In this document: piece after piece, positions 2,434 to 41,158 of the stretch
How positions within the stretch are numbered: the stretch's first letter is position 1
Layout of the letters: the number at the start of each line of letters is the position of its first letter
IMG/VR virus record: IMGVR_UViG_3300017727_000026
Span: 1 to 41,775 of that record
Direction: 5' to 3' (one strand)
Length of the DNA: 41,775 bases
Source: a virus
Notes under the pieces: generated by a model
What the model was told of the DNA's origin: nothing
Databases searched by the model: none
Seen by the model: the letters and a program-made list of their open reading frames with translations, nothing else
Position numbers and translations under genes: made by a program

Positions 2434-2631
2434 TTTTCACACAATCAGACATTTTCAGATCACACAGCTAGATAGTCGCACTATATATCGGCTTTAGTGT
2501 TTCTTGTATTTACATACGAACCAACGACAAATTGATGCATCGGCGTCAATATGCCGCTGGCTTTTGTGTGCACTAAAAAGCCGCTCTTTAGTGAACACTA
2601 GTCAATCACTATTATTTTTTTGGGGGCAAAC
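2434..2631 (+). promoter_or_regulatory. leader of the RNA polymerase gene with a 12-bp inverted repeat
   Basis: The spacer between attP and the RNA polymerase start has no gene. It holds one strong dyad: GTGTGCACTAAA (2566-2577) against TTTAGTGAACAC (2587-2598), 11 of 12 positions paired around a 9-nt loop. A T-rich run follows at 2615-2621, 16 bases after the stem, just before the Shine-Dalgarno GGGGG (2622-2626). It could be an operator or an attenuator controlling entry into lytic growth. No convincing sigma70 promoter could be picked by eye. Any integrase arm sites could not be identified. Confidence 0.4.
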
Positions 2632-5127
2632 ATGCTGACTGAAGAACTTATGCTTGAAGACGGTGCGGAAAGGTACCGAAAACAGCAAGAACAAATTAAA
2701 GCTGCAGGTATCTTAGGATCTGTAGAAACTAAATTAACTGCAGCCACGATGGCCGAGGTTTGTAAGTGCCTGAATCAAGACTTAGAATTTACAACACCAA
2801 TAAATAAAAAACCATTTTGGTTTTATCCGCTTAAGACTTTAGATAATGGAGTGTCGGCGTACATAGGCTTAAACCAAGCGTTTAGTGCTGTCGGTCAAGA
2901 CACAGATGTTACGAATACGTGTATACAAATTGGAAAACAAGTTGCCATCGAGCTATGGGCTTTAGATCTACAAGCAAAAGACGAAGCTCTTTTTAAAAGA
3001 ATTTTCCGTATGGCAACGAAAAACCATAATTCTCAGAAGCATAGACTGAAAGCGATGTCAGCAGTTGCTGGTCGTGAAGGTTACCCGAGAGAAATTTGGG
3101 AAGCAGAGCAAAACATTAACGTAGGTTCTGCAGTTCTTAATGCAGTTATTCGCGGATCAGGCTTATTTGAAATATATGATAAGCCTAAAAAACAATACTT
3201 CACAAAAGCGTTAGGTCTTACAGAGGTCGGTCAACAATTAGTAGCTGATCTAGGCGATCAAGCACAATGGATGTATCCGTGTTTTAGACCAATGTTAGCT
3301 AAACCTCGACAATGGGAAGACTTTGACACAGGTGCTTATCACGACGCTAGAATTAGTTCACTTGTTCCTTTAGTACGTAAGGCGAGTAAAAATCAGCAGC
3401 AGTTGATACAGACTCGCTTAGCTTCAGGAAATTTAGATTGTGTCTTAAAAGCATTGAATTTGATCCAAGAAACTCCGTTTATGATTAATAAGCGTGTTCT
3501 TGATGTTGTTATTCAAAGTTACGATGACAAAGCAAAGATTACTAAATTTCCTAAAGCGACAAAACTCAAGGTCGAAAAGAAAACTAGTAATTGGGACGAA
3601 CTTGATTACGAAGAACGCAAACATATCAAGAAGCAGCGAGAAGCAGTAATACTACAAAACCGTGCGGTTGATGCCGACATGGTAAATTTTCGAGCTGATA
3701 TTGAAATTGCTAAGGAATTGTTGAAGCACGATAAGTTTTATCTGCCTCATAACTTGGATTTTCGTGGTCGTGTATATCCTATACCGTCATTTAACCATCA
3801 ACGAGCTGATTTTGTGAGATCGCTGTTCATGTTTGCCAACGGCAAAAAATTAGGACCAGACGGATCTTATTGGCTAGCTGTTCATGTCGCTAATTGTGGC
3901 GATTTTGACAAGATTAGTAAAAAATCTTTTGATGAACGCGTTGCATGGGTAAACGAAAATCAAAATTTAATATACGCAATAGCAAGAAAACCAGGCTTAA
4001 CGAAAAAGTTTTGGCATAACGCTGATAAACCGTTTTGCTTTCTTGCGGCGTGCATTGAATTTGCTGGCTACATGGAAGAAGGCGAAGACTACGTTTGTCA
4101 CTTGCCTCCAGCCATGGATGGAGCAAATAGCGGCGTGCAACACTATAGCGCCGCACTTAGAGACCGCCAAGCCGGTCGGCTCGTAAATCTGACAAATGAA
4201 GAGCAGCCACAAGACGTATACCAAGAAGTTGCGGACCTGGTGAACGAAACCATTAACAATGATTTTGAACATCCTGAAGCAGAACAATGGTTACAATTTG
4301 GCGTAACTCGCAAAGTTGTTAAGCGTAATGTTATGACATTTGCTTACTCAAGCGAGCAGTTTGGATTTAGGAAACAAATCATCGAGGACTTAATGGAACC
4401 TCTTCGTAAAGATGTTCTTGAAGGTTCACTTGATACACACCCTTTCGGTGAAGACAACGGCTCAAAAGCAGCAGGCTACCTCGCAGGTCGAGTATGGCGT
4501 TCTGTTACTGATGTTGTTGAAAAAGCTGCCGAGGGTATGAAGTTCATACAAAATTGTGCTGCAGTGTTAGCTCACGAGCGTAAGCCTTTAATATGGACTT
4601 CGCCAATAGGCTTGCCTGTTGTGCACCACTATGAGACGTGGGACATAAACAGGGTACGTATATTCTTATACGACAAGGAGATTATTCCTTCTGAAGCGAG
4701 TAAAAATAGCAAGGTCAATCGGGACGGAGACGTCTACAACTGCATCATGCTTAATTTACGAAGCAAGCCTACAGGTAAGATTGATAAAACTAAGCAACGC
4801 AATGCTGCTGCGCCTAATTTTATCCACTCGCTAGACGCCTCACACTTGATGTACAGCGTGCTAGCAGCACACGAGGATCACGGCATAAATGATTTTATGT
4901 TGATCCACGATAGTTTTGCTACGCATTGTGACAACACAGCACAATTTGGTCACGTTATTCGTGAACAGTTTGTTGCTATGTACGAGCAATACGATGTTTT
5001 CCAAGATTTGTATGACGGATGCTACAAGGCACTTGCTGCCGATTCTGTCGATAAATTAACGATGCCACCTCAAAAAGGCGAGTTGGACATCGCGGAAGTC
5101 ATAAAAAGCAAATACGCATTTAGCTAA
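2632..5127 (+). CDS. T7-like single-subunit DNA-directed RNA polymerase
   Basis: 831 residues (T7 gp1: 883). It transcribes phage genes from phage-specific promoters without host sigma factors. All key motifs are present: DFRGRVYP near 376 (DxxGR), MDGANSGVQHYS with catalytic D496, KRNVMTFAYSS with K564 and Y572 at the same 8-residue spacing as T7 K631 and Y639, NFIHSLDASHL, and LIHDSF with catalytic D760 (T7 D812). The ATG at 2632 is preferred over an in-frame TTG at 2620 because GGGGG precedes it by 5 bases. It is the first gene after attP and heads the early block. Its likely promoters are the 24-bp repeats of the 15-20 kb region. Confidence 0.97.
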   Translation: MLTEELMLEDGAERYRKQQEQIKAAGILGSVETKLTAATMAEVCKCLNQDLEFTTPINKKPFWFYPLKTLDNGVSAYIGLNQAFSAVGQDTDVTNTCIQIGKQVAIELWALDLQAKDEALFKRIFRMATKNHNSQKHRLKAMSAVAGREGYPREIWEAEQNINVGSAVLNAVIRGSGLFEIYDKPKKQYFTKALGLTEVGQQLVADLGDQAQWMYPCFRPMLAKPRQWEDFDTGAYHDARISSLVPLVRKASKNQQQLIQTRLASGNLDCVLKALNLIQETPFMINKRVLDVVIQSYDDKAKITKFPKATKLKVEKKTSNWDELDYEERKHIKKQREAVILQNRAVDADMVNFRADIEIAKELLKHDKFYLPHNLDFRGRVYPIPSFNHQRADFVRSLFMFANGKKLGPDGSYWLAVHVANCGDFDKISKKSFDERVAWVNENQNLIYAIARKPGLTKKFWHNADKPFCFLAACIEFAGYMEEGEDYVCHLPPAMDGANSGVQHYSAALRDRQAGRLVNLTNEEQPQDVYQEVADLVNETINNDFEHPEAEQWLQFGVTRKVVKRNVMTFAYSSEQFGFRKQIIEDLMEPLRKDVLEGSLDTHPFGEDNGSKAAGYLAGRVWRSVTDVVEKAAEGMKFIQNCAAVLAHERKPLIWTSPIGLPVVHHYETWDINRVRIFLYDKEIIPSEASKNSKVNRDGDVYNCIMLNLRSKPTGKIDKTKQRNAAAPNFIHSLDASHLMYSVLAAHEDHGINDFMLIHDSFATHCDNTAQFGHVIREQFVAMYEQYDVFQDLYDGCYKALAADSVDKLTMPPQKGELDIAEVIKSKYAFS

Positions 5128-12875: not shown

Positions 12876-13130
12876 ATGACAAGAATGATAAAAAAGGTTA
12901 CGCCAACACATACGTTTGATTGGTGGCTGAAGTGGGTCTCTACCGCTTTTATTATGGTCGGTTTGTCGATACGTGCAGCTGACTACCACACCGTTTTAGA
13001 CATGGCACTTACACTTAATGGCACCATCGGATGGCTCATTGTAGCCGTCATTTGGCATGACCGTGCAATAATGATTATGAACGCAGCAGCGGCTGCATTG
13101 CTCGTTATGGGCATACTAACTCGTTTATAA
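12876..13130 (+). CDS. small membrane protein
   Basis: 84 residues. The start at 12876 is chosen because AAGAGAG lies 6-12 bases upstream; the longer frame from 12735 would translate the terminator hairpin. Three hydrophobic segments are visible: about 18-33 (WVSTAFIMVGLSIRAA), 45-62 (LNGTIGWLIVAVIWHD) and 64-82 (IMIMNAAAAALLVMGIL). The N-terminus is basic, so probably cytoplasmic. I recognise no function. It sits between a terminator and nrdJ, and similar small membrane proteins are common in marine phages. Confidence 0.75.
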   Translation: MTRMIKKVTPTHTFDWWLKWVSTAFIMVGLSIRAADYHTVLDMALTLNGTIGWLIVAVIWHDRAIMIMNAAAAALLVMGILTRL

Positions 13131-13171
13131 GCCGCACTTTAGACCCTAGGGTCCTACGGAAAACAACAACA

Positions 13172-16520: not shown

Positions 16521-16544
16521 GTCCACTAAGGGCAAAAATTTGCG
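16521..16544 (-). promoter_or_regulatory. phage promoter repeat 1
   Basis: Minus strand: CGCAAATTTTTGCCC then TTAGTGGAC, followed by a leader TTAACTAACGATGGAGG that supplies the Shine-Dalgarno. It lies about 12 bases from the previous unit's terminator. The predicted start is at GGAC. Confidence 0.75.
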
Positions 16545-16555
16545 CTCGAAATAAA

Positions 16556-16588
16556 CGAAAAAAAGAGGCGAGCCCGTCGGCCCGCCTC
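16556..16588 (-). terminator. intrinsic terminator of leftward unit 2
   Basis: GAGGCGAGCC (16565-16574) pairs with GGCCCGCCTC (16579-16588) with one mismatch and loop CGTC. The A-run at 16558-16564 is the T-tract of the minus strand. Confidence 0.9.
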
Positions 16589-17300: not shown

Positions 17301-17324
17301 GTCCACTAAGGGCAAAAATTTGCG
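17301..17324 (-). promoter_or_regulatory. phage promoter repeat 2
   Basis: Minus strand CGCAAATTTTTGCCC then TTAGTGGAC, identical to repeat 1 across all 24 bases. The leader TAACTACTATGGAGG follows. Confidence 0.75.
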
Positions 17325-17350
17325 CTTGTAAGCAGCGCACGTTTAAAATG

Positions 17351-17379
17351 AAAAAAAGGCCGAACTTACGTCCGGCCTT
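17351..17379 (-). terminator. intrinsic terminator of leftward unit 3
   Basis: AAGGCCGAAC (17356-17365) pairs with GTCCGGCCTT (17370-17379) around TTAC with one mismatch; A7 at 17351-17357 gives the minus-strand T-tract. The stop of the last gene (TAA) is in the loop. Confidence 0.9.
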
Positions 17380-17530
17380 CTAATTCGAGTGCAATGATTA
17401 ACAAGCATATTCGCTCGTACATCGTTAACTCTGTGTCGCCATCATCGACAACCTTACTATCACGTTGCTGCGAGGGCAGATTTTCGATTTGGTGTTTGAG
17501 ATCATACGCAATAATAAGATTATTGTTCAT
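17366..17530 (-). CDS. small hypothetical protein (end of leftward unit 3)
   Basis: 54 residues from ATG 17530, which overlaps the previous stop (ATGA), to a TAA at 17366-17368 inside the terminator loop. Helical and charged, with a hydrophobic C-terminal stretch (YERICLLIIALELEGRT). No family recognised. Coupling and placement support it. Confidence 0.58.
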   Translation of the reverse strand: MNNNLIIAYDLKHQIENLPSQQRDSKVVDDGDTELTMYERICLLIIALELEGRT

Positions 17531-18133: not shown

Positions 18134-18157
18134 GTCCATAGAGGCCAACAATTTGCG
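18134..18157 (-). promoter_or_regulatory. phage promoter repeat 3 (divergent copy)
   Basis: Minus strand CGCAAATTGTTGG then CCTCTATGGAC. The CGCAAATT block and the TATGGAC start region are kept while the middle differs. The leader AACAACGACGGAGG follows. Confidence 0.65.
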
Positions 18158-18171
18158 TCCAAGCTTTAACG

Positions 18172-18202
18172 AAAAAAAAGGCCGAGCTTTCGCTCAGCCT
18201 TT
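18172..18202 (-). terminator. intrinsic terminator of leftward unit 4
   Basis: The same hairpin as at 15230-15260: minus strand AAAGGCTGAGC, GAAA, GCTCGGCC, then T8. Confidence 0.9.
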
Positions 18203-18977: not shown

Positions 18978-19001
18978 GTCCATTAAGTGCAAAAATTTGC
19001 G
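18978..19001 (-). promoter_or_regulatory. phage promoter repeat 4 (consensus copy)
   Basis: Minus strand CGCAAATTTTTGCAC then TTAATGGAC, with leader TTAATTAACGATGGAGG. Confidence 0.75.
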
Positions 19002-19066
19002 CTCTAAATGAGCGTGCGTTTAAAATAAAAATGAATTAGAAGCAGACGAAAAAAGCTCGACGAAAC

Positions 19067-19098
19067 AAAAAAAAAAGACCGAGCTATCGCTCGGCCTT
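19067..19098 (-). terminator. intrinsic terminator of leftward unit 5
   Basis: GACCGAGC (19077-19084), loop TATC, GCTCGGCC; the A10 run at 19067-19076 is the minus-strand T-tract. Bases 19050-19080 resemble those before the next terminator (19300-19326), a short repeat. Confidence 0.88.
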
Positions 19099-19123
19099 CT
19101 AATATTCATGATCGTGATTCACC

Positions 19124-19231: not shown

Positions 19232-19255
19232 GTCCATAAATGGTTGAAATTTGCG
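19232..19255 (-). promoter_or_regulatory. phage promoter repeat 5 (divergent copy)
   Basis: Minus strand CGCAAATTTCAACC then ATTTATGGAC; ends conserved, middle changed. Confidence 0.62.
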
Positions 19256-19313
19256 TTTGAAATAAAACGAAATAAAAATGAATTTAGCGTACGCAAAAAA
19301 ACTTCGGCGAAAC

Positions 19314-19348
19314 AAAAAAAAAGACCACACGCCTTTCGACGTGTGGCC
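19314..19348 (-). terminator. intrinsic terminator of leftward unit 6
   Basis: GACCACACG (19323-19331) pairs with CGTGTGGCC (19340-19348) with one mismatch; A9 at 19314-19322 gives the minus-strand T-tract. Confidence 0.9.
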
Positions 19349-19353
19349 TAATT

Positions 19354-19827
19354 TTATGCGATGGATTTCAAAATCGCATTTGTGTGCTTTTTCGCAATTT
19401 CGCGAGCTTCGACTTCCCATGGCAAGTTGACATAATCATCGTGTCCTTTTGGCGCACCAAATGTTTCGCCTTCGAATTTGTACGTTTTGCCTTTTTGGCT
19501 AAGTCGTTTTGACTCATATTGCGACGCATGTGCGAGTTCGTGCACAATTGTGTTAACTTTCGACTTTAAGTCAAAATTTTTGCAGTCAATTTCGACTGTT
19601 TTATTCGCATTATTAAAATTGCCATAACACTTTAAGCCCTTTTTTTGGCGAATATTGCGAAAGTGCAATTTAATATTTGACTTTACGCCAAGGCGCTCTT
19701 TTGCCAAGTCGAACGCTTTAATTAATTGTTCGCTTTGACTTTTAAAATTTTCGCGAATGTCTTTGACATCGCAAAATACTGAGCCTGTGACGGTCGTATA
19801 GTCGTTCAATATAATAGTTTTCGGCAT
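19354..19827 (-). CDS. zincin-like metallopeptidase domain protein
   Basis: 157 residues. The zinc motif HExxH is clear: H96-E97-L-A-H100 in IVHELAHASQYE, with a candidate third ligand E138 or E140 in NLPWEVEAREIA, the glutamate-zincin arrangement also seen in SprT-like and ImmA-like proteins. Residues 50-90 form a beta region (IKLHFRNIRQKKGLKCYGNF). GGAG precedes the start by 9 bases. It is alone in its unit behind two tandem promoter repeats. Its base composition is AT-richer than the replication genes. A role in cleaving a host or phage protein is an inference. Confidence 0.75.
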   Translation of the reverse strand: MPKTIILNDYTTVTGSVFCDVKDIRENFKSQSEQLIKAFDLAKERLGVKSNIKLHFRNIRQKKGLKCYGNFNNANKTVEIDCKNFDLKSKVNTIVHELAHASQYESKRLSQKGKTYKFEGETFGAPKGHDDYVNLPWEVEAREIAKKHTNAILKSIA

Positions 19828-19855: not shown

Positions 19856-19877
19856 TAAAGCAAAATAATTATTGCTT
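19856..19877 (-). promoter_or_regulatory. inverted repeat in the leader of the zincin gene
   Basis: AAGCAA (19858-19863) and TTGCTT (19872-19877) form a dyad around AT-rich sequence. It begins where transcription from repeat 6 should start, so it would form a 5' hairpin on that transcript or act as an operator. Confidence 0.4.
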
Positions 19878-19898
19878 CATTAAGGGCCAAATTTTGCG
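19875..19898 (-). promoter_or_regulatory. phage promoter repeat 6
   Basis: Minus strand CGCAAAATTTGGCCC then TTAATGAAG. The GGAC start bases are altered, so it may be weak. Confidence 0.55.
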
Positions 19899-19931
19899 TG
19901 CGAAATAATAATAAATCGCAAATAAAATTGA

Positions 19932-19955
19932 CTCCATTAAGTGCAAAAATTTGCG
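19932..19955 (-). promoter_or_regulatory. phage promoter repeat 7, tandem with repeat 6
   Basis: Minus strand CGCAAATTTTTGCAC then TTAATGGAG, one base from the consensus copy. It lies 57 bases upstream of repeat 6 and drives the same zincin unit. Confidence 0.72.
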
Positions 19956-19968
19956 TGCGAAAAAAACG

Positions 19969-20000
19969 AAAAAAAAAGGCCGAGCTTTCGCTCAGCCTTT
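19969..20000 (-). terminator. intrinsic terminator of leftward unit 7
   Basis: Third copy of the AAAGGCTGAGC, GAAA, GCTCGGCC, T8 hairpin (minus strand), 14 bases from promoter repeat 7. Confidence 0.9.
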
Positions 20001-20293: not shown

Positions 20294-20317
20294 TTCCATT
20301 AAGTGCGAAAATTTGCG
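20294..20317 (-). promoter_or_regulatory. phage promoter repeat 8, rightmost copy
   Basis: Minus strand CGCAAATTTTCGCAC then TTAATGGAA. The leader to the gene at 20205 is longer (about 90 bases) than in other units. Confidence 0.68.
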
Positions 20318-20620
20318 TTTGAAAATTTTAATTCGTATTTTTGTATAAATGCAAAATGCCAATAAACGAAATCCAATTCGTTCAATATTCGATTTAATAT
20401 TTATTAATATTCGTTTTGCAATTAGATATTTTATCTAATCATTGAACGAATTACATTTTATTCAATTTAAATTTAAAAACGTTCGTTTAATTAGGCTCCA
20501 TTTGAGCATAAACGAAATATAAAATCGAAATGAATGACATTTCGAAAATGTCGGTTATTGTTGTTGTTTGTAGTTTCTTACAAACTTCGTCCCCCATAAG
20601 AAAAACACCGAGGAACTACC
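20318..20620. other. AT-rich palindromic spacer between leftward and rightward gene blocks
   Basis: No gene is seen. Nested inverted repeats are: AATTCGTTCAAT (20375-20386) with ATTGAACGAATT (20441-20452), perfect over 12 bp; inside it ATTAGAT (20421-20427) with ATCTAAT (20433-20439); then GACATTT (20536-20542), loop CGA, AAATGTC (20546-20552); then GTTTGTA (20566-20572), loop GTTTCT, TACAAAC (20579-20585). It is the most AT-rich stretch and separates divergent transcription, so it may hold the late promoter, a replication origin or both. None can be proven by eye. Confidence 0.5.
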
Positions 20621-23296: not shown

Positions 23297-23467
23297 ATGG
23301 CTTACAACACAATACGCGAACCATACATACGTACCTTGCCGCCAGAAGACGAAGAATCACGGCTTGAGTACATCAACGAAGAATTAAGAAAATTAGAAAC
23401 AACTCTCGACAGAATAAACTCTCTGTTGACGGAGATAGATAACCGGCTTGTCGGTGGAGGATTATAA
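23297..23467 (+). CDS. small coiled-coil protein
   Basis: 56 residues, MAYNTIREPYIRTLPPEDEE followed by a heptad-like helix with regular Leu and Ile (INEELRKLETTLDRINSLL). The stop overlaps the next start (TAATG), so they are coupled. Probably a small virion or chaperone-like component; no family recognised. Confidence 0.65.
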   Translation: MAYNTIREPYIRTLPPEDEESRLEYINEELRKLETTLDRINSLLTEIDNRLVGGGL

Positions 23468-24408
23468 TGTTTGGCAGTTTTTTCGATAAAGGCAGCTCCC
23501 ATCACCAGGACCCGTTAGCTCAGGAAGGTTTCGATCTATATAAAGACCAGCTAAATCAGCTATCGCCAGGTCTTATGAGTATGCTGCAGGGTGTCGTGCA
23601 AAACCCATACTACCAAGGCGACCTTTCAGCATCTGTCGACCCATACATGTCAGAAGCCTACGGCATGATAGGCGATTACACCAACAACATGTTCGGCAAC
23701 TCACAAGCTATGATGGATAATATCCTTGGCCAAATGGGTCAGTTTGACAATTACGGTCAAATGCTAGCCGACTACAATACTCGTATATCTGATCCAAACG
23801 CAGCATTTGATTACGCTAACCAGTTTGCAAATAGTGGCATGGTCAATGATATGATCGATGCTGCATCTACTGATGTAACCCGCAACTTGTACGAAAACAC
23901 TTTGCCTGGTCTTGATCGCGCTGCAGTCATGAGAGGTAACACTAATAGTAACCGAACAGGTATTGCTGAAGGCATAGCTACCCGTGGCGCCGCTGATCGT
24001 ATAGCAGATATTGGCGCGGGAATTCGCAACAACATGTTTGGTCAAGGTATAAACCAATTTAATAAAGGCTCGGCAGCAGAGCTTGCTGGCTTACAACAAA
24101 TGGGCAGTGCTTACAACAACATGGCAGGTCTATACAACAATGCCTTTACAATGGGCGGCAACGCTCTTGATGCAATGTACGGCATGGGCAACAGCATGAT
24201 GGGTATAGACCAAGCTGCACTTGATCGCCTCTACGGTGATTACCAGTACGGTACGTCATTGCCATTTGATTTGTTCGGCAAATATATGAATCCGTACGCA
24301 AACATGTCTAGCTTCTCAGGCAAAGGTAATTTCCAAGAGCAGCCAAGTGATGCAGATAACGTCGCACAAGCACTCAAAATTGGTAGCACAGTAGCAGGAT
24401 TTTTCTAG
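23467..24408 (+). CDS. internal virion / ejection protein, Gly-Asn-Met-rich
   Basis: 313 residues, rich in Gly, Asn, Gln, Met and Ala with long helices (MSEAYGMIGDYTNNMFGNSQ; GMGNSMMGIDQAALDRLYGD). Low-complexity helical proteins of this type lie before the large ejection proteins in podoviruses (compare T7 gp14), and form the channel that passes DNA through the outer envelope. No catalytic motif. It directly precedes two further ejection-type genes. Confidence 0.7.
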   Translation: MFGSFFDKGSSHHQDPLAQEGFDLYKDQLNQLSPGLMSMLQGVVQNPYYQGDLSASVDPYMSEAYGMIGDYTNNMFGNSQAMMDNILGQMGQFDNYGQMLADYNTRISDPNAAFDYANQFANSGMVNDMIDAASTDVTRNLYENTLPGLDRAAVMRGNTNSNRTGIAEGIATRGAADRIADIGAGIRNNMFGQGINQFNKGSAAELAGLQQMGSAYNNMAGLYNNAFTMGGNALDAMYGMGNSMMGIDQAALDRLYGDYQYGTSLPFDLFGKYMNPYANMSSFSGKGNFQEQPSDADNVAQALKIGSTVAGFF

Positions 24409-24417
24409 GAATATAAA

Positions 24418-25755
24418 ATGGGACTTTTTGATTTTATGCGAGGGTCTGGTCGGCTTTCGCAAGGGCCAACTCGACCTCAGTTGTACCAAACTGAGACGTA
24501 CACGCCGCAAACGAGCAATAATGTGAAGGCTGCATTGAATGATCCAAATGCCCCTCAGTATATAACCGCGAACCGTATGACACTTAACCGTCCAGGCACA
24601 ACTGGTGGACCCGTTCAAGTCAACCCGCTGCCACCAATGCCTCAACAGCGTCAAACAAATGCACTTACCGATGCAGCAACTTACATGAAGCAGGTCGATG
24701 AGTTTTCAAAGTTTAGTAATGCACCACTTAGCGACAAACTTATGGCACTCAGCAGCGCATTTAGCAGCACAACCGCTGACGACAATTACATGAAGGATTA
24801 CGAACAAGGTATACGCGACAGATTTACTGAGCGGCGCACTCAAGAAGTAGAAGCTCGGCGCAAAGACTTCGGCGACATACAATATGTAGGCGACGCAAAT
24901 ACAGGCAAGCTGATGCGTCAGAACAAAACTACAGGACAGCTTGAAGACGTAACAGACCAGTATCCTCCAAGCGTAATTGATGCGTTTAAAGCTCAATTTA
25001 AAGCTAAAGAATTTAAAGGACAAGTATTAGATCCGCGAACAGGCGGACTTATTAGTCCAGCAGACGCAGCACGCGATAAGAAATTTGTTGAAGGCCTTGT
25101 AAAAAATCCTACAACAAATATGGCACAGGATATTAGTGAGCTAGGGCTTGTTTTACAACAGCTTAAATCACCGGATGGTGGTGACTTAACTGGACTAAGT
25201 TTTACTAGTCCGATTGACTCCGTAGCTAGGTTGGTAGACTCGCAAGGCGACCTGGGCTTGCGTGCTATGGTCGACACTAAAAGTAAGGACATGCAGGACA
25301 TTGTTAACCGAGTTACGCAGCAGTCTTTGCGAGTAACTCTTGGTGCACAATTTACCCAACGCGAAGGCTTTATGCTGATCCAAAGAGCGTACGATGTACG
25401 CTTGCCACCTGAAATGAACGCAAGACGTATTGCCGTTGCAAGAGAAGCATCGAAAATGCTTAGAGAAGAGCGGCTAGCACAAGAAAAATATTTCAATGAG
25501 AATAGAACACTTGCTGGCTACGTTTCACCAATCGCTTCTTCACTAGAACAAATGAACCAAAGGATACAGGCGGTTTATGCGCAGAATAGTAGCGACTTTG
25601 GCGATGAGTACAAACAGGCTCAAAACGATTTAAGAGAAATCGGTGGCACGGTTTCACTTCAAAGGCCCTCTGAAAACACGACGCCTAACAATCAAACAGC
25701 AACTGATCCTGTGCTTGAAGAGATTTTAAAACAATATCCAGAGAAAAACAAATAA
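24418..25755 (+). CDS. internal virion / ejection protein
   Basis: 445 residues, Pro/Gln-rich first 90 residues then mostly helical and charged (RDRFTERRTQEVEARRKDFG; VTQQSLRVTLGAQFTQREGF; LPPEMNARRIAVAREASKML). Its position between the 313-residue and 1714-residue ejection proteins matches the T7 gp14-gp15-gp16 order. AGGAA precedes the start. No enzyme motif seen. Possible DNA-transfer or core protein. Confidence 0.7.
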   Translation: MGLFDFMRGSGRLSQGPTRPQLYQTETYTPQTSNNVKAALNDPNAPQYITANRMTLNRPGTTGGPVQVNPLPPMPQQRQTNALTDAATYMKQVDEFSKFSNAPLSDKLMALSSAFSSTTADDNYMKDYEQGIRDRFTERRTQEVEARRKDFGDIQYVGDANTGKLMRQNKTTGQLEDVTDQYPPSVIDAFKAQFKAKEFKGQVLDPRTGGLISPADAARDKKFVEGLVKNPTTNMAQDISELGLVLQQLKSPDGGDLTGLSFTSPIDSVARLVDSQGDLGLRAMVDTKSKDMQDIVNRVTQQSLRVTLGAQFTQREGFMLIQRAYDVRLPPEMNARRIAVAREASKMLREERLAQEKYFNENRTLAGYVSPIASSLEQMNQRIQAVYAQNSSDFGDEYKQAQNDLREIGGTVSLQRPSENTTPNNQTATDPVLEEILKQYPEKNK

Positions 25756-25764
25756 GGCTAAAAA

Positions 25765-28700
25765 ATGGCTACACTGCAGCAAATCGAGTCTGCATTACTT
25801 GCCGCGCATGAAGCTGGTAATGTCGAACATGCGACTGCGCTGGCAAACGCGTACCGCGAGATGCAAGGACAGCAAACCGCTATTGTACCCAACGCCGAAC
25901 CTGATGGACCACTTGCTTACGGTGTAGACCTTGCACAAGAACGTGTCGGTAAAACATTTAAGGCTGTTGGTGAGCTTACTGGTTTTGAAGGTTTAGAACA
26001 AACTGGCCAAAATATTATCGACCAGCAACAAGGAGACATTGCTCGAGGCAACTATCAGCCTGAATACAATTTAACACTCGACCAAGCGTTCAGGCAAGGC
26101 AAGCTCGGCGGTTTTACATTAGAAAAGCTGCAGGAAAACGCAGCCAGCACAGGCGGTAGCCTTGTTGGTGCTTTGGGCAGTGCTGTTGCTGTTGCCTTTG
26201 GCATGCCTATTACAGCTGCCGTAACCACGCTCGGCACGCTTGGTTTTTCTATATCTCAAAATATTGGCGAAGCAGTATCAGAACAAGAAGCTAAACTTGA
26301 CGGTGAATACTCGCCTGGCACATCAGTTGCTGTTGGTACAGTAGCAGGTCTGCTTGACCTCGTTGGTGCCAAAGGTGTTATCCCAACCGACGCCCTTGCA
26401 AAGATGACGATAAACGAGATTGTCGAAACACTCGGCAAGAAAGGCTACTACGAAGCTGCTACTGAATTTACGAAGAAAATATTAAAAAAGACTGCAATTG
26501 AGGGCACTACAGAAGCTGGACAAGCTGGCTTGGTTACAGCTGGTGCTGCCTATGAAGGGGCTGATTACACTACTGAAGAAGTTATACGCAACCTCGGAAC
26601 TGAAGCCTACTTTGGCGCCATCATGGGTGGTGGCGTTGCTACTACACTCGAAGGCGCAAAAGGCGTTAAAGCTGTTGCAGATCCTGTCATCGAGCCAGTT
26701 GTTGCAAAGCTCACACCCGACACCATGCGAAACATTCACGGTGGTGACACAGAGGCAATGGCTGACGTTACACGCGACATAGTTCAAATGGACAGTGTAA
26801 ATCCTGAGCGCAGCACCGGTAATTTACAAGATAACGAAGCAACAATAGACGACCTTCACACTGACTACATGGCTGAGTTTAACGAGCGCATTGCACAGGC
26901 TCGTAAAGCAGGCAAAATTAATGACGGCAACAGAGCAGCTGTTAATGCGGCGGCTAAGCGCGCAAAAAACAAAGTTAAAAACGAAAGCAACACAGCTGAC
27001 ATTGAGCTGCTCAACGACATTGATCCTCAGTTAGGTGCCCTTGCCCGTAAATTTAATATTATTACGAGATTTAGTAAGCTAGGCGTGCAAGGTGGTGTGT
27101 CGCAATACACAGACTTTTTTAATCCTCTTACAGTTTTGCGCAGTGTAGGCAAGCTAGCCCGACGACAAGCGGCAATACAAGCTGGTGTCTCTACCGGTAT
27201 TGCTATGTACGCGCCAGCAGGCTCTGCATCACTTTATGTTGGCGGCAGAGCGATTGATGCTGTTACAGGCAGCCGCAACCGCGTTAAGAAAGCCATCAAA
27301 AAATATGGCGACGCTCCAGGTATTGCACGTCCTGATGGCGTGTCAGCAACTGAAGCTACAGCAGGCTCGACTACAACACAGCAAACTGCGTATGGTGGCA
27401 AACCTGTTACTGAAGCATTAGACGAGACTAAGCAAAACATCGCCCCAGATCCGATTTCACCGCAGGGTGTCATGGAAGGCAACACAGGTCTTGATCGTGC
27501 AACTGTAGCAAAGCTGCTTCGCGTATTAGCCAAAGCTAAGCCTGCACTAAACAAATCGATACAAGAGTATCATCGTTCGGTTGCTATGCGCGGTGGCAAA
27601 GTTTCTGGCCTGTATCCACTTATCGCTGAAGTTAAGAAAGCTGCAGCTGCACAAGGTATTGAGTTTGATACAACGTCCCCAACTGGCCCAGCTGCTGGCC
27701 AAAACCAGCAAGGCGACATCAGAAACCCTATTGCTTACCAAGCTACTGTCGACGCAGCGTTAGCTACTCTTAAAAACGCCGTGGACAACGCTCCGACACC
27801 TGAAATTGCGGCAGTTGCCTTGAAAGTGGCGGCAGCTAAATCACGGTCGTTAAAGAAAGCGATTGTAGCTGAAGCAATTAATGCTTTCCCCGAGAACAGC
27901 ACATACATCAAAGCCGTTATCGATCCGTTAACAGAGTTTGGCCCGCAAGAAACAGCACAAGAGTCAAGGTTTGACGGATCTGCATTTCTCGATGAAAGCC
28001 GCACTATTGATCCACGCGAAACTAAGTTTAACGATACTGATCGCTTAGGTTTAATTGCTAGAGCTTTAGGCAAAGGTTTTAAGGTCGTACTCAACGCAAG
28101 TGACGACGCTTATTATCGCCGCCAAGAGCTTATTACGCTTTCACGTGATGCTGACCGCACAGCGGTTTTACACGAAATATTTCACGCAGTAGAAGACAGA
28201 CTCTCAGAAAAAGAGATGTCTATTATTCAAAACCATCCGACATACCGCGACATATTGCTCGAGGTGGTCGACATGTACCCTGAGCTTTCGATTGCAGCCC
28301 AGCGCCTAGAGGCGATGGCTGAGACATCAGCTCGTTTACAAAACAGCCGCAAAGATGGCGACGGCGTGGTTAATTACGCCTTGTCGCGGATCAAAGGCTT
28401 AATTGAAGCATTTAAAAATCTGATCGACGGTAAAGGCTTTAACACAGTAGATAGTGTACTTGACGAAATTTACACTGGTAAAGCGTACCAGCGTAGCATC
28501 AACGAGGCATACCACGATCTGCTTGTGCCGACTGTGCAGTATGCAAAGAGCGACAAGCCTGGCGGTCCGATGGTAGCAAAACGCTTGAAGCTACTTGATA
28601 AGGTCGAGGAGCAAGCTAAACAGCTGCCCACGCTAGAGCCAAAAGTTAACAAAGCCTTTGATGCTAAGATCGCAACAATTGCCAATAACCTCGGCATACC

Positions 28701-30909
28701 TGGCATCGACGCTACAACGTTAAATATGATCTTGCGTCGCATTACACCAGGCGTCGACATAGGCATGATAGCTACAGATTATTTACGTGCTATCAACGTA
28801 CTCGACTCTGAAGGCAGAATTATTGGCGAAGACGTTAATAAAGATAATTACGAAGACTTTATTAATCCTTATCGCGACAACTTTATCATACTGCTAAAGG
28901 CGCTGCAGGAAGCCGATATAATTGGTGACTTTGGTCTTGCCTTTAGAACTAGCGCAGGGGGGCGCCTGTATCCAGTGCACACGCTGGACTTCACGGATCC
29001 TGACATTGCAGCTAAAGCTGAGCTTAACAACGTTAATAAGTTCAAGAACCGTGCAAAATCTGAGCCCTATACTGACGCTCAAATCAACGACCATCCGCTC
29101 GGCAGCTATGAAAACACACGTGAGTTCATATTACGTGAACAGCAACAAGGTCTCGTCATCAACGATAAAATATTTGAGATGATGGACAAGATGCAGTCCA
29201 CGCCACAAACTCACCGCGGTCTTGATTTGATATTTAAAAAAGACGGCACTACGGATAGCGCTTACACGCTCGCAAGTGCCGAAGCGATTAAGCAGCACAA
29301 AGATAACCAAAAAGAAACAGGCATGAGCCCTGTGTTTATGAGACGTCGTGCACAAGATCGTTTGCGCGTTGATACACTCAACGGAAGTGCGTCGTATCAA
29401 GGTAAAGCCGGTAAAGCTATTTGGGAGTTTCCTAACTGGACGCCTCTCGGCGCAACTGGTTTTGAACAGATGCTACACAGCATGCGCGATCACTTTGGCT
29501 TGTCTAATGAGCTGCCATTTGATCAGCGCGTAGGCTTTTTGTTCGGCACAGTTCGTGACTACATGAAACTTGCTGGTCGACCTGAGAGTGACAAGATACC
29601 GGAAAATGTCTTAGACATGCCGCTGATTGACTACATCGTAAACCAGTACGGTCAAGACGGTAGTTACATCTACTCGCACACTCGTGGTGGCACACCAAAG
29701 ATATTCTTAGACAAACAAAGCGGCACTACACTTTACCAAATGAACCATGCCGTTTTTGATGTGGCAGATCATGGTTTTGAAATACAGCGAGCTGCTATTG
29801 AATTAGGTCGTATGCGCGCTTTCTTAGAAGGCAAAAATCCTAAATTTAAGAAAGTGCCTAGCTCTGAGTTGTTTCAGTTAGACGACGTACAAGCCGAGCT
29901 TGAAGGTTTTAGAAGTGCATATCCGACATGGTTTGATGGCACATCATCATCTTACCAGCTTCACGCAGTACTAACTGGCGACGCTGGCTTAGCCGCAGCT
30001 ACGAACCTTACAGACTTTGATCCATCAGCGCCTGCAAGCGATTTATATCGCCCTGGTGCAAATGTAGTTCAAGGCATGTATCAGCTGCCGTTTAGCAAAG
30101 CTCGTAAAATTAGTAAGAAGTTTTTGGCAAACAGGCGAAGCTACGGTCAGGTTAAATTGACCGCACAAAAGTCTGGTGCCGACGAACTAGCAAAGCAAGT
30201 AGAAGATTTTGGCGATTATGACAGCGACCAAGCTGTAAAAGAAGTCGTCAAAAATATTCAAAACCAGCTTGAGCTAGAGTTCGATACTAATTTCCCTGGC
30301 GCAGCGCTTGCTGAAGGTATTTCACGAGCTATAGCCGGTGAAGTACAGAATATGCTTGGTGACGATGGCTTTGCTGTTCGTGTTCCTTTGCCTGATGGTG
30401 ACGTTGCTGTCTACACAGGCAAGCTGCCCGACAGTGCAAAGCGAAGAGTTACTTGGACACTTGACGAAAATGGCAAAGACGGAACTGAACGTCGCGTAGG
30501 TGTAGGTGTATACCAGCCTAAACTAGCGATTACAGGTTTTGCTGCTTTCCTTAACCACTCACTCGATGCGTACGTGCAACGAGAGATGGCAAAACGCCTG
30601 CGTGACTCTGGTGTAGAGCATTTTATGCATACACACGACGCGTTCGCAGTGCCTGCAGCTAATGCAGAGCAAATGCGGCAGGTTTATCACGAAGTACTCA
30701 CGGAAATAGCTAAGCAAGACATTTACGCTAAAATACTAGAAGCAAATGGTCTTGATCCTGACAGCATGGTCGTCAAATTCAACAAAACCACAGAACAAGG
30801 TCCTGTAAAAATCGAAATACCGATGCGCCAAGTATTGGAAACAATACACAAAGAAAAAATGAAAACTTTTGGCGACGGTGTTCCCGTGAATTTTTACGCT
30901 TTGAGTTAG
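25765..30909 (+). CDS. giant ejection protein with a C-terminal T7-class RNA-polymerase-like domain and HExxH motif
   Basis: 1714 residues. Residues 1-35 match the start of large podoviral internal proteins. Residues 120-180 and 245-300 are Gly/Ala-rich and hydrophobic, suited to membrane insertion. H803-E804-I-F-H807 is an HExxH zincin motif. The C-terminal third has single-subunit RNA polymerase motifs: SAGGRLYP (1063-1070, DxxGR-like), FDGTSSSYQLHAVLTGD with D1391 (motif A), KKFLANRRSYGQ with K1452 and Y1460 at the T7 spacing of 8 (motif B), LNHSLDAYV (1596-1604), and HTHDAF with D1625 (motif C). It aligns with the phage's own polymerase around these blocks. I infer a virion-packaged RNA polymerase injected with the DNA, analogous to N4 vRNAP. 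Confidence 0.8.
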   Translation: MATLQQIESALLAAHEAGNVEHATALANAYREMQGQQTAIVPNAEPDGPLAYGVDLAQERVGKTFKAVGELTGFEGLEQTGQNIIDQQQGDIARGNYQPEYNLTLDQAFRQGKLGGFTLEKLQENAASTGGSLVGALGSAVAVAFGMPITAAVTTLGTLGFSISQNIGEAVSEQEAKLDGEYSPGTSVAVGTVAGLLDLVGAKGVIPTDALAKMTINEIVETLGKKGYYEAATEFTKKILKKTAIEGTTEAGQAGLVTAGAAYEGADYTTEEVIRNLGTEAYFGAIMGGGVATTLEGAKGVKAVADPVIEPVVAKLTPDTMRNIHGGDTEAMADVTRDIVQMDSVNPERSTGNLQDNEATIDDLHTDYMAEFNERIAQARKAGKINDGNRAAVNAAAKRAKNKVKNESNTADIELLNDIDPQLGALARKFNIITRFSKLGVQGGVSQYTDFFNPLTVLRSVGKLARRQAAIQAGVSTGIAMYAPAGSASLYVGGRAIDAVTGSRNRVKKAIKKYGDAPGIARPDGVSATEATAGSTTTQQTAYGGKPVTEALDETKQNIAPDPISPQGVMEGNTGLDRATVAKLLRVLAKAKPALNKSIQEYHRSVAMRGGKVSGLYPLIAEVKKAAAAQGIEFDTTSPTGPAAGQNQQGDIRNPIAYQATVDAALATLKNAVDNAPTPEIAAVALKVAAAKSRSLKKAIVAEAINAFPENSTYIKAVIDPLTEFGPQETAQESRFDGSAFLDESRTIDPRETKFNDTDRLGLIARALGKGFKVVLNASDDAYYRRQELITLSRDADRTAVLHEIFHAVEDRLSEKEMSIIQNHPTYRDILLEVVDMYPELSIAAQRLEAMAETSARLQNSRKDGDGVVNYALSRIKGLIEAFKNLIDGKGFNTVDSVLDEIYTGKAYQRSINEAYHDLLVPTVQYAKSDKPGGPMVAKRLKLLDKVEEQAKQLPTLEPKVNKAFDAKIATIANNLGIPGIDATTLNMILRRITPGVDIGMIATDYLRAINVLDSEGRIIGEDVNKDNYEDFINPYRDNFIILLKALQEADIIGDFGLAFRTSAGGRLYPVHTLDFTDPDIAAKAELNNVNKFKNRAKSEPYTDAQINDHPLGSYENTREFILREQQQGLVINDKIFEMMDKMQSTPQTHRGLDLIFKKDGTTDSAYTLASAEAIKQHKDNQKETGMSPVFMRRRAQDRLRVDTLNGSASYQGKAGKAIWEFPNWTPLGATGFEQMLHSMRDHFGLSNELPFDQRVGFLFGTVRDYMKLAGRPESDKIPENVLDMPLIDYIVNQYGQDGSYIYSHTRGGTPKIFLDKQSGTTLYQMNHAVFDVADHGFEIQRAAIELGRMRAFLEGKNPKFKKVPSSELFQLDDVQAELEGFRSAYPTWFDGTSSSYQLHAVLTGDAGLAAATNLTDFDPSAPASDLYRPGANVVQGMYQLPFSKARKISKKFLANRRSYGQVKLTAQKSGADELAKQVEDFGDYDSDQAVKEVVKNIQNQLELEFDTNFPGAALAEGISRAIAGEVQNMLGDDGFAVRVPLPDGDVAVYTGKLPDSAKRRVTWTLDENGKDGTERRVGVGVYQPKLAITGFAAFLNHSLDAYVQREMAKRLRDSGVEHFMHTHDAFAVPAANAEQMRQVYHEVLTEIAKQDIYAKILEANGLDPDSMVVKFNKTTEQGPVKIEIPMRQVLETIHKEKMKTFGDGVPVNFYALS

Positions 30910-38869: not shown

Positions 38870-41158
38870 ATGTCGAAAAGTAGTGTGTTTCAGTCAGTAT
38901 CTGTGACTGAAAGTGATCTGCCGAATTTGCTCACACAAGTTCAAACAAGTGAAAATAATGCGGCAAACTCGGCTGCTGCCGCTGCAACAAGTGCGGCGTC
39001 AGTAGGTACTTCCGCATCAGACGCTACAACTGAAGCGTCTAACGCAGCAAACTCTGCGACTGCTTCTGCTAACTCAGCCAGTACTTCAGCCGCTTCTGCA
39101 TCGGCAGCGGCGGCTTCAGAAAACAATGCTAGCACACACGTTACAACTGCCAGCGGACACGCAACAGGGGCAGCTAATTCGGCTACATCGGCAACAAACA
39201 GTCAAGCTGCAGCAACTCAAAGCGCAACTGACGCTGCTTCGTCGGCAACCAACGCTGCTACTTCGGCAACTAATGCAGCAACTTCTGAAACAAATGCGGC
39301 GACATCTGCATCTGCTGCTTCGACATCTGCATCTGCTGCGTCGACATCAGTTACTAACGCGGCAGCCGAAGTTACTAAGGCGGCAGCCGAAGCTACAGCC
39401 GCAGCAGCTTCTGCGACGGCGGCAGCTGCTTCAGAGTCTGCTGCCTCAACATCGGAAACAAATGCACAAACACATTCAAACACTGCGTCGGGTCACGCAA
39501 CTACAGCGTCAACGCAGGCAACAAATGCTGCCACCTCAGCAACAGCCGCCGCAACATCAGAAACAAACGCAGGAACACAAGCAACCAACGCAGCAACTTC
39601 AGCGACCGCTGCAGCAGGCTCAGCGACAAATGCCGCTACTGCGCAAACAGCAGCAGAGTCCGCCAGAGACTCAGCGCTAGCAGCTTTTGATAATTTTGAC
39701 GACCGCTATTTAGGAGCAAAGACAAGCGATCCTAGCACCGATAACGACGGAAACACTCTTGTTGCAGGCACGCTCTATTTTAATAGCAGCACAAGCACAA
39801 TGATGCTTTACACAGGCTCAGCCTGGGTTGCCGCTTATGTTTCCGGTGGTAGCTTTGCTGCGTTGTCCGGCGCAACCTTCACAGGTGACGTTACTGTTCC
39901 CAACCTTATTACCGCTGGTAACGTCGATGGTCGTGATGTTTCTGTCGATGGTACTAAGCTCGACGGGATTGCAGCCAATGCCACAGCCGTAAGTAGCCTA
40001 ACTGATCTCAGCATTAGCGACGGTACTAACGGCCAGGCTCTCAAGACCGATGGTAGCGGCAACTTTAGCTTCGGTGACGTTACTTCAAGTGTTGCCTTTG
40101 CTGACATCACAGGTAAGCCCACAACACTTTCGGGCTACGGCATAACGGATGCGGTAGCACAACTAGCTGATACCTCATCTCCAAACTACCAAACACCATC
40201 AAGTCGGCGTGTTGATCCGAATGGTGATAATCCAACAAACGAACATTACGCAATTACAACATTTGGGAACGGCAGTAATGTAACTGGGCAGCTTGCCGCT
40301 CACTTCCAAACAGGCCAGCTATACAGTCGTGGCTACAACAGTTCGTTTTCAACGTGGCGCAAGATTTGGAATGACCAAAACGATGGCTCTGGCTCCGGTC
40401 TGGATGCTGATCTGCTTGACGGCTACCACGCTAGCACTACTCGTAACTCAGCAAACACAATTCCAATTCGCAATAGTAGCGGTTATCTCGATTTAGGTTG
40501 GATTAACACGACTAGTGGCGCAACTACAAATACCATCAACAAGATTTATTCTTCCAACGATGACTACCTTAGATATGTAACTCCGGCGACATTCCGCGCA
40601 CAGGTAATCAGTAATCAAACTATAAACGAAATATATAATGACGGCTGGTATCGAACTAACGGAGCTAGAGGCTGGTACAACCAGACCTATGGCGGCGGTA
40701 TTTACATGACCGACTCCACTTATGTGCGTACCTACGGAAGTAAGCAGCTATATGTTAATACGCACATTAAAGCCGCCTCAAACGTGTATGCATACTGGTC
40801 TGATGATCGCCTAAAAACAAAGATAGGCAACATCGACAATGCACTGGACAAAGTTCAGAGCCTTTCTGGCTTTACATACACCAGAAACGATGTCGCCAAG
40901 AGCCACGGATTCGATGGTGATGAAGTAGAGGTAGGCGTATCCGCTCAACAAGTAAAAGCCGTGCTACCTGAAGCAATACATCTAGCTCCCTTTGATGAGA
41001 AAGTCGAAGATGATGGGACTATCGTGTCGAAGTCCGGTGAGGACTATATGACAGTTGATTACCCAAGGCTTGTTCCGCTGCTCATCGAAGCTATCAAAGA
41101 ATTAAAAGCTGAAGTCGATGAGTTGAAAGCGGGGTGTTGTCATGCCGCTACAGACTAG
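38870..41158 (+). CDS. tail fibre with Ala-rich repeat shaft and C-terminal S74 chaperone domain
   Basis: 762 residues. The N-terminal 30 residues attach to the tail. Residues about 25-265 are an Ala/Ser/Thr/Asn repeat shaft. Residues 275-620 are the receptor-binding region (GSFAALSGATFTGDVTVPNL; GSGSGLDADLLDGYHASTTR). The end is an intramolecular chaperone, peptidase S74 type: SDDRLK with S644 and K649 (Ser-Lys dyad), then VGVSAQQVKAVLPEA and a coiled coil ending in ELKAEVDELK. This domain trimerises the fibre and then cuts itself off. Start with AAGG upstream; overlaps the next gene by 17 bases. Confidence 0.92.
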   Translation: MSKSSVFQSVSVTESDLPNLLTQVQTSENNAANSAAAAATSAASVGTSASDATTEASNAANSATASANSASTSAASASAAAASENNASTHVTTASGHATGAANSATSATNSQAAATQSATDAASSATNAATSATNAATSETNAATSASAASTSASAASTSVTNAAAEVTKAAAEATAAAASATAAAASESAASTSETNAQTHSNTASGHATTASTQATNAATSATAAATSETNAGTQATNAATSATAAAGSATNAATAQTAAESARDSALAAFDNFDDRYLGAKTSDPSTDNDGNTLVAGTLYFNSSTSTMMLYTGSAWVAAYVSGGSFAALSGATFTGDVTVPNLITAGNVDGRDVSVDGTKLDGIAANATAVSSLTDLSISDGTNGQALKTDGSGNFSFGDVTSSVAFADITGKPTTLSGYGITDAVAQLADTSSPNYQTPSSRRVDPNGDNPTNEHYAITTFGNGSNVTGQLAAHFQTGQLYSRGYNSSFSTWRKIWNDQNDGSGSGLDADLLDGYHASTTRNSANTIPIRNSSGYLDLGWINTTSGATTNTINKIYSSNDDYLRYVTPATFRAQVISNQTINEIYNDGWYRTNGARGWYNQTYGGGIYMTDSTYVRTYGSKQLYVNTHIKAASNVYAYWSDDRLKTKIGNIDNALDKVQSLSGFTYTRNDVAKSHGFDGDEVEVGVSAQQVKAVLPEAIHLAPFDEKVEDDGTIVSKSGEDYMTVDYPRLVPLLIEAIKELKAEVDELKAGCCHAATD
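38945..39680 (+). repeat. degenerate tandem repeats coding the fibre shaft
   Basis: The DNA repeats units of roughly 18-24 bases coding variants of NAATSAT and SASAAST (for example GCAACTTCTGAAACAAATGC near 39280). They form the low-complexity trimeric shaft. The length is likely to vary between relatives through slippage or recombination. Confidence 0.8.

Follow-up and report, generated by a model that had tools for sequence, protein, structure and literature searches.

In phage N4, gp50 is a giant protein that belongs to a set of three ejection proteins, has an HExxH domain, and transcribes the early genes once it has been ejected (PMC12633501). Fusion to a zincin-like peptidase is described as a constant feature of N4-like RNA polymerases (PMC5512222), and the giant virion RNA polymerase has been called unique to Schitoviridae (PMC12633501). 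Phage P23-45 has an RNA polymerase for early genes that is fused to a virion protein, and a second, non-virion RNA polymerase (PMC10770324). We analyzed a stretch of viral DNA of 41,775 nucleotides (IMG/VR record IMGVR_UViG_3300017727_000026, here called the window), in which an earlier note had proposed a second single-subunit RNA polymerase within the C-terminal third of a giant ejection protein. Like N4 gp50, this protein is a giant member of an ejection set, combines a single-subunit RNA polymerase domain with an HExxH zincin-like domain, and provides the phage with its second single-subunit RNA polymerase (PMC12633501, PMC5512222). It also resembles the tail-tape-fused enzyme of P23-45 and the giant virion RNA polymerase of crAss-like phages, in which a virion protein is fused to an early-gene RNA polymerase, but those enzymes are of the two-barrel (DPBB) type and unrelated to the T7 fold of the domain described here.

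The giant protein and its operon

Three genes follow one another here; the first has a match to a DNA ejection protein family, and the third encodes the giant protein.

23467..24408, + strand, upstream DNA ejection protein (PHROG 4287)
24418..25755, + strand, second upstream operon protein of unknown family, placed by position
25765..30909, + strand, giant open reading frame of 1714 amino acids that ends the ejection-protein operon; homologues found in related contigs
25765..27981, + strand, N-terminal region (residues 1-739), fast-evolving, with hydrophobic stretches near residues 127-161 and 187-207
27982..28599, + strand, zincin-like metallopeptidase-like region with HEIFHAVE at residues 803-810 (28171-28194)
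28600..30906, + strand, single-subunit RNA polymerase domain (residues 946-1714), identified by Pfam/PHROG, hhalign, and a model searched with Foldseek

Family searches with the product of 24418..25755 gave no matches. The motif HEIFHA[VI]E is invariant across all relatives of the giant protein; the zincin-like region has no family match, and its assignment comes from the motif alone. Residues 1-739 are probably the ejection or membrane part, a function that is inferred. None of the ejection-protein families in Pfam and PHROG matched the N-terminal half, and an HMM of this half showed no homology to N4, HTVC021P, HTVC106P, phiM5, or Venkman (T7 gp16 itself was outside the test set). The protein occupies the same place in the ejection operon as T7 gp16, which to our knowledge has no polymerase domain, but it has no gp16 family match, and the label 'gp16-like' used in the earlier note finds no support in the sequence.

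Packaging of the giant protein in the virion is inferred from the position of its gene in the operon only, without virion proteomics. The protein could instead be a soluble RNA polymerase, late or early, that was fused by chance downstream of the structural operon and is not packaged, and the absence of homology between its N-terminal half and known ejection proteins speaks for this. We regard this as improbable, given that the gene shares the structural operon with the PHROG ejection protein, that in phiM5, which has a related structural module, the structural block closes according to its record with three internal virion proteins that were detected in particles, and that N4, crAss-like, and P23-45 phages all have giant fusions of virion protein and RNA polymerase (PMC12633501, PMC10770324).

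About 30 metagenomic contigs in IMG/VR carry the same fusion, with complete homologous open reading frames of 1714-2012 amino acids (stop to stop). Conservation within the protein is highest in the RNA polymerase part (58-98% identity over full-length matches), and the N-terminal part drifts. No isolated phage in our collection has the fusion; annotated records matched only in stand-alone RNA polymerase genes (E up to 10), and low-scoring tblastn matches within 50,697 phage records fell almost all into annotated RNA polymerase genes, the rest being in unannotated records or hypothetical genes. A search of bacterial genomes yielded no relative of the giant protein, and a literature search, with incomplete coverage, found no description of a fusion of T7-type RNA polymerase and ejection protein like this one. 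In BFVD, the model of a viral protein of 1463 amino acids (A0A7S5FRK7) matches the RNA polymerase domain (TMq 0.57); this protein is possibly another fusion because it is too long for a normal phage RNA polymerase.

The RNA polymerase domain

The domain had been placed at 28950-30700. It is present there but is larger, extending from about residue 946 to the C-terminus (28600-30906). Profile searches, in which the absence of a match would have refuted the proposal, all detected it: Pfam RNA_pol matched the giant protein with E=5.8e-9 and 35.7 bits (curated cutoff 22), two PHROG RNA polymerase families matched (E=1.4e-11), and profile-profile comparison with 52 T7-like RNA polymerases by hhalign gave a Prob of 93.9 and E=1.6e-7. 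Because the Pfam score exceeds the cutoff, PHROG RNA polymerase families match, and Pfam RNA_pol is detected in 14 of 14 relatives, the signal is well above chance. The domain is about 20% identical to T7-like RNA polymerases and contains the following conserved segments.

29359..29367, + strand, R1199/R1201, probable counterpart of RGR in T7 DFRGR
29932..29964, + strand, motif A FDGTSSSYQLH (D1391, Q1398); columns match in 47/47 T7-like RNA polymerases
30106..30147, + strand, motif B KISKKFLANRRSYG (K1448, K1452, Y1460, G1461); Y column 47/47, T7 K-to-Y spacing of 8
30376..30450, + strand, VRVPLPDGDVAVYTGKLPDSAKRRV, aligned by hhalign to the PDG strand preceding the T7 specificity loop; G column 45/47
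30553..30576, + strand, NHSLDAYV (H1598, D1601), corresponding to T7 VHSQDGSH; 47/47
30628..30645, + strand, motif C HTHDAF (H1624, D1625); 47/47
30889..30906, + strand, NFYALS, counterpart of the FAFA 'foot' of T7, at the C-terminal end of the giant protein

The residues and spacings read from the sequence in the earlier note are present, with Q1398 following D1391 (+7), Y1460-G1461 following K1452 (+8), H1598 in NHSLDAYV, and H1624 and D1625 in HTHDAF. D1391 and D1625 match the catalytic aspartates D537 and D812 of T7, and K1452, Y1460, and G1461 match the Lys-x7-Tyr-Gly of motif B (T7 K631, Y639, and G640). In a MAFFT alignment, D1391, Q1398, Y1460, H1598, D1601, H1624, and D1625 lie on columns that are identical in 47 of 47 T7-like RNA polymerases. 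These residues, together with R1199, R1201, R1255, D1426, and Y1428, are invariant in an alignment of 64 rows (17 fusion-family sequences and 47 T7-like RNA polymerases). The domain retains almost every residue that does not vary across the superfamily. The automatic alignment gapped the motif B lysine, and the spacing of K1452 was checked by eye; within the fusion family K1448 is invariant and K1452 nearly so. The reading of SAGGRLYP (R1067) as DxxGR had to be given up because R1067 varies among the relatives, with V in several of them. Instead, R1199 and R1201 align to RGR, although neither the D nor the G of DxxGR is conserved. RPOL_N, the N-terminal promoter-binding domain of T7 RNA polymerase, was not recognized by Pfam in P0001/P0002 and was found in the stand-alone RNA polymerase; it is not required for the catalytic domain to belong to the superfamily.

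YALS forms the C-terminus of the giant protein in all complete relatives. The phage's own stand-alone RNA polymerase ends in YAFS and the T7 enzyme in FAFA, and the termini of the 47 T7-like RNA polymerases are alike (FAFA/YAFA/YAFS). The foot of T7 RNA polymerase lies near the active site and the enzyme is sensitive to alterations there (PMC10110463), from which we infer why the polymerase has been placed at the C-terminus of the fusion.

AlphaFold with 22 family sequences alone produced a model of little use (pLDDT 55), the best PDB matches of which were already single-subunit RNA polymerases. With the 64 rows (17 family sequences and 47 T7-like RNA polymerases) the model reached pLDDT 84 and pTM 0.81. 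A Foldseek search of the PDB with this guided model agreed with the proposed fold, as all 50 matches listed were T7-type or mitochondrial RNA polymerases (best E=3e-15, TM ~0.5) and none of them had a DPBB fold. As 47 rows of its alignment were T7-like, the guided model is supportive of a single-subunit RNA polymerase fold without being evidence separate from the homology itself, and the active-site geometry is unmeasured.

Enzyme derivatives with a structural role are known from some phages, and the partial conservation of DxxGR would be compatible with a degenerate, non-catalytic polymerase fold retained for DNA binding or genome pulling. This appears very unlikely to us: all or nearly all relatives retain both catalytic aspartates, the motif B lysine and tyrosine, the motif C histidine, and the foot, and the catalytic core has a dN/dS of ~0.03, determined against L001, the sole relative close enough to measure. 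The profile matches, the invariant catalytic residues, the foot, the purifying selection, and the model guided by T7 homologues thus agree with the proposal of a second T7-class RNA polymerase within the giant protein. Judged by sequence and model, its C-terminal domain is a single-subunit RNA polymerase of the T7/mitochondrial type, whose catalytic activity is inferred. It shares motifs A, B, and C, the PDG and HSLD segments, and the C-terminal foot with T7 and T7-like RNA polymerases, but differs from them in its position behind an ejection/zincin part of 945 amino acids, in the lack of a recognizable RPOL_N, and probably in its promoter.

Two classes of predicted promoters

Both RNA polymerases are present in every sufficiently complete relative, and hence co-occurrence cannot separate them. 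Two promoter motifs were found in the genomes. The class 2 motif, TTAAGAAGCCGCACTTTAGAG, is of the T7 type and precedes the gene of the stand-alone RNA polymerase and the RNR gene in several genomes.

2620..5127, + strand, stand-alone T7-like RNA polymerase (Pfam E=1.3e-103), kept in relatives
2573..2593, + strand, predicted class 2 promoter upstream of the stand-alone RNA polymerase gene, weaker match
13124..13144, + strand, predicted class 2 promoter upstream of the RNR gene, same place in relatives

One contig that had been left out of motif discovery has class 2 sites at both expected places. The class 2 matrix, built solely from this phage family, picks phi1.1A and phi1.1B of T7 at their annotated positions, indicating that class 2 fits the stand-alone T7-like RNA polymerase. 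Class 2 was not found around other T7-like RNA polymerases, which is expected if each such enzyme has its own promoter. The genome is mosaic, with a T7-like replication and RNA polymerase module as in Pelagivirus HTVC021P and a portal and capsid of the HTVC106P/phiM5/LUZ24-like kind. A segment of the RNR gene (14129-14355) is 73-79% identical in DNA to Streptomyces phages, and the tail fibre gene contains 21-nt (7-amino-acid) repeats (39014-39660).

The class 1 motif, ACGCAAATTTN5CTTTATGGAC, occurs in eight copies of 25 bp, only before the leftward early genes (cluster at 15.1-20.6 kb).

16521..16545, - strand, predicted class 1 early promoter (motif match, as for the next seven)
17301..17325, - strand, predicted class 1 early promoter
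18134..18158, - strand, predicted class 1 early promoter
18978..19002, - strand, predicted class 1 early promoter
19232..19256, - strand, predicted class 1 early promoter
19875..19899, - strand, predicted class 1 early promoter
19932..19956, - strand, predicted class 1 early promoter
20294..20318, - strand, predicted class 1 early promoter
16565..16588, - strand, intrinsic terminator a short distance upstream of a predicted class 1 promoter
17354-17381, 18177-18202, 19073-19100, 19322-19349, and 19975-20000, further intrinsic terminators near class 1 sites

The eight sites lie on one strand within 3.8 kb and score 30-40 bits with a matrix made from the window, the next best site scoring 14.6. 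With a matrix rebuilt from the whole family they score 26-36 bits, and the highest-scoring remaining sites of the window reach 20 and 18; no site above 20 bits appeared when the window was shuffled 200 times. Every relative with an assembled early region has class 1 sites of its own, and G001-G006 have two to seven each at the same position (G006 is partly assembled there). We found 18 stretches with the exact sequence CGCAAATTTN5CTTTATGGAC in 2.9 million viral contigs, all in contigs with genes of this phage family. The portions of HTVC021P, N4, HTVC106P, and phiM5 that were read contained no site, and there was none above 25 bits in 1.06 Mb surrounding other T7-like RNA polymerases. The single match in bacterial genomes is not accompanied by any gene of this phage family and is probably due to chance. 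An early leftward protein (19354-19827, - strand) contains VHELAHA (HExxH) and has weak, sub-threshold matches to metallopeptidase families.

Because class 2 fits the stand-alone enzyme, class 1 is left to the virion RNA polymerase, an assignment made by elimination and without direct promoter data. This lack of data leaves room for a real virion polymerase that acts mainly as a motor or non-specific starter during DNA entry, with class 1 being served by the stand-alone RNA polymerase or a host sigma factor. We consider this rather unlikely. The stand-alone enzyme would be expected to use class 2, which matches true T7 promoters and precedes its gene, and a host sigma factor is disfavored by the lack of -35/-10 geometry in class 1, the spacing of which is unfit for sigma-70, and by the frequent location of the sites directly behind terminators.

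A tRNA gene segment adjoins the integrase gene at 2368-2433; it comprises about three-quarters of the gene (3' side with CCA end, anticodon ACG read by eye). This segment is probably attP, which points to a probably temperate phage with a tRNA-Arg gene as its possible integration site. Since the phage has an integrase and an attP-like segment, and since repressors can bind to repeated sites that share one orientation, class 1 could consist of asymmetric operators (for example the stoperator-like sites bound by the repressor of a temperate phage), with host promoters driving the early genes. Against this, the sites lie directly after terminators and at a fixed short distance from the ribosome-binding site and start codon; a Shine-Dalgarno sequence and start codon follow most class 1 sites by 17-28 nt, and many sites are closely preceded by an intrinsic terminator. 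Sigma-70-like sites are barely above expectation (20 versus 14.3, sd 3.7), and the TTTATGGAC of class 1 resembles the start region of single-subunit RNA polymerase promoters. We therefore give the operator explanation little credence and favor class 1 as the early promoters of the virion RNA polymerase.

An N4-type hairpin promoter was rejected, as the GCAAA/TTTGC palindrome of some class 1 sites is not conserved; 37% of 43 sites fold into a stem, versus 21% of shuffles (RNA energy parameters). In G002, G003, G004, and G005, a class-1-like site on the + strand lies before the integrase gene, with a terminator hairpin immediately behind the site. The window retains the ACGCA start and the hairpin at 1398-1450, and the remaining class 1 motif is absent. 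The site is possibly an attenuated early promoter of the integrase.

Comparison with N4 and proposed order of transcription

The giant protein would work like the virion RNA polymerase of N4, a function that is inferred, but it is not a member of that group by sequence, motif C, or promoter type. There is no detectable sequence match between the two (hhalign Prob 0.1 against a single N4 sequence; PHROG 2206 not hit), and motif C has FD in N4 and HD here. The RNA polymerase is central in N4, with the HExxH domain after it, whereas here it is C-terminal with a free foot and the HExxH domain comes before it. The early promoters are hairpins in N4, while class 1 lacks a conserved stem, and the genome is 42 kb instead of about 70 kb.

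We infer that the virion most likely contains the giant protein and ejects it before the DNA, that the N-terminal part would contribute to the channel across the envelope, and that the zincin-like domain may process the protein. As inferred from the partition of promoters, the polymerase domain would then start transcription at the eight class 1 promoters without host RNA polymerase, and the stand-alone T7-like RNA polymerase would take over at the class 2 promoters. We think it likely that an ejected virion RNA polymerase serves the class 1 early genes and the stand-alone enzyme the class 2 genes in this way, with activity, packaging, and promoter assignment all inferred. The role in early transcription suggested in the earlier note, likewise inferred, gains independent support from the dedicated early-gene promoter class, which is restricted to this phage family. 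With the early cluster in the middle of the map and the ends of the genome undetermined, entry of the early genes before the others is not shown; G001 is broken elsewhere than the window, within the RNA polymerase gene.

As class 1 resembles ordinary compact promoters and not N4 hairpins, the virion enzyme may act directly on double-stranded DNA. A genome in which each of two T7-type RNA polymerases has a promoter of its own would also supply a new orthogonal polymerase-promoter pair. With somewhat more confidence than doubt, we propose that in a lineage of small temperate podophages a T7-type RNA polymerase was recruited into an ejected protein independently of N4, giving a two-polymerase cascade with dedicated double-stranded early promoters in which neither stage needs the host RNA polymerase. 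If true, these 42-kb phages would provide a second, separately derived case of a giant virion RNA polymerase besides Schitoviridae, one in which the enzyme is C-terminal and its T7-type foot is left free.
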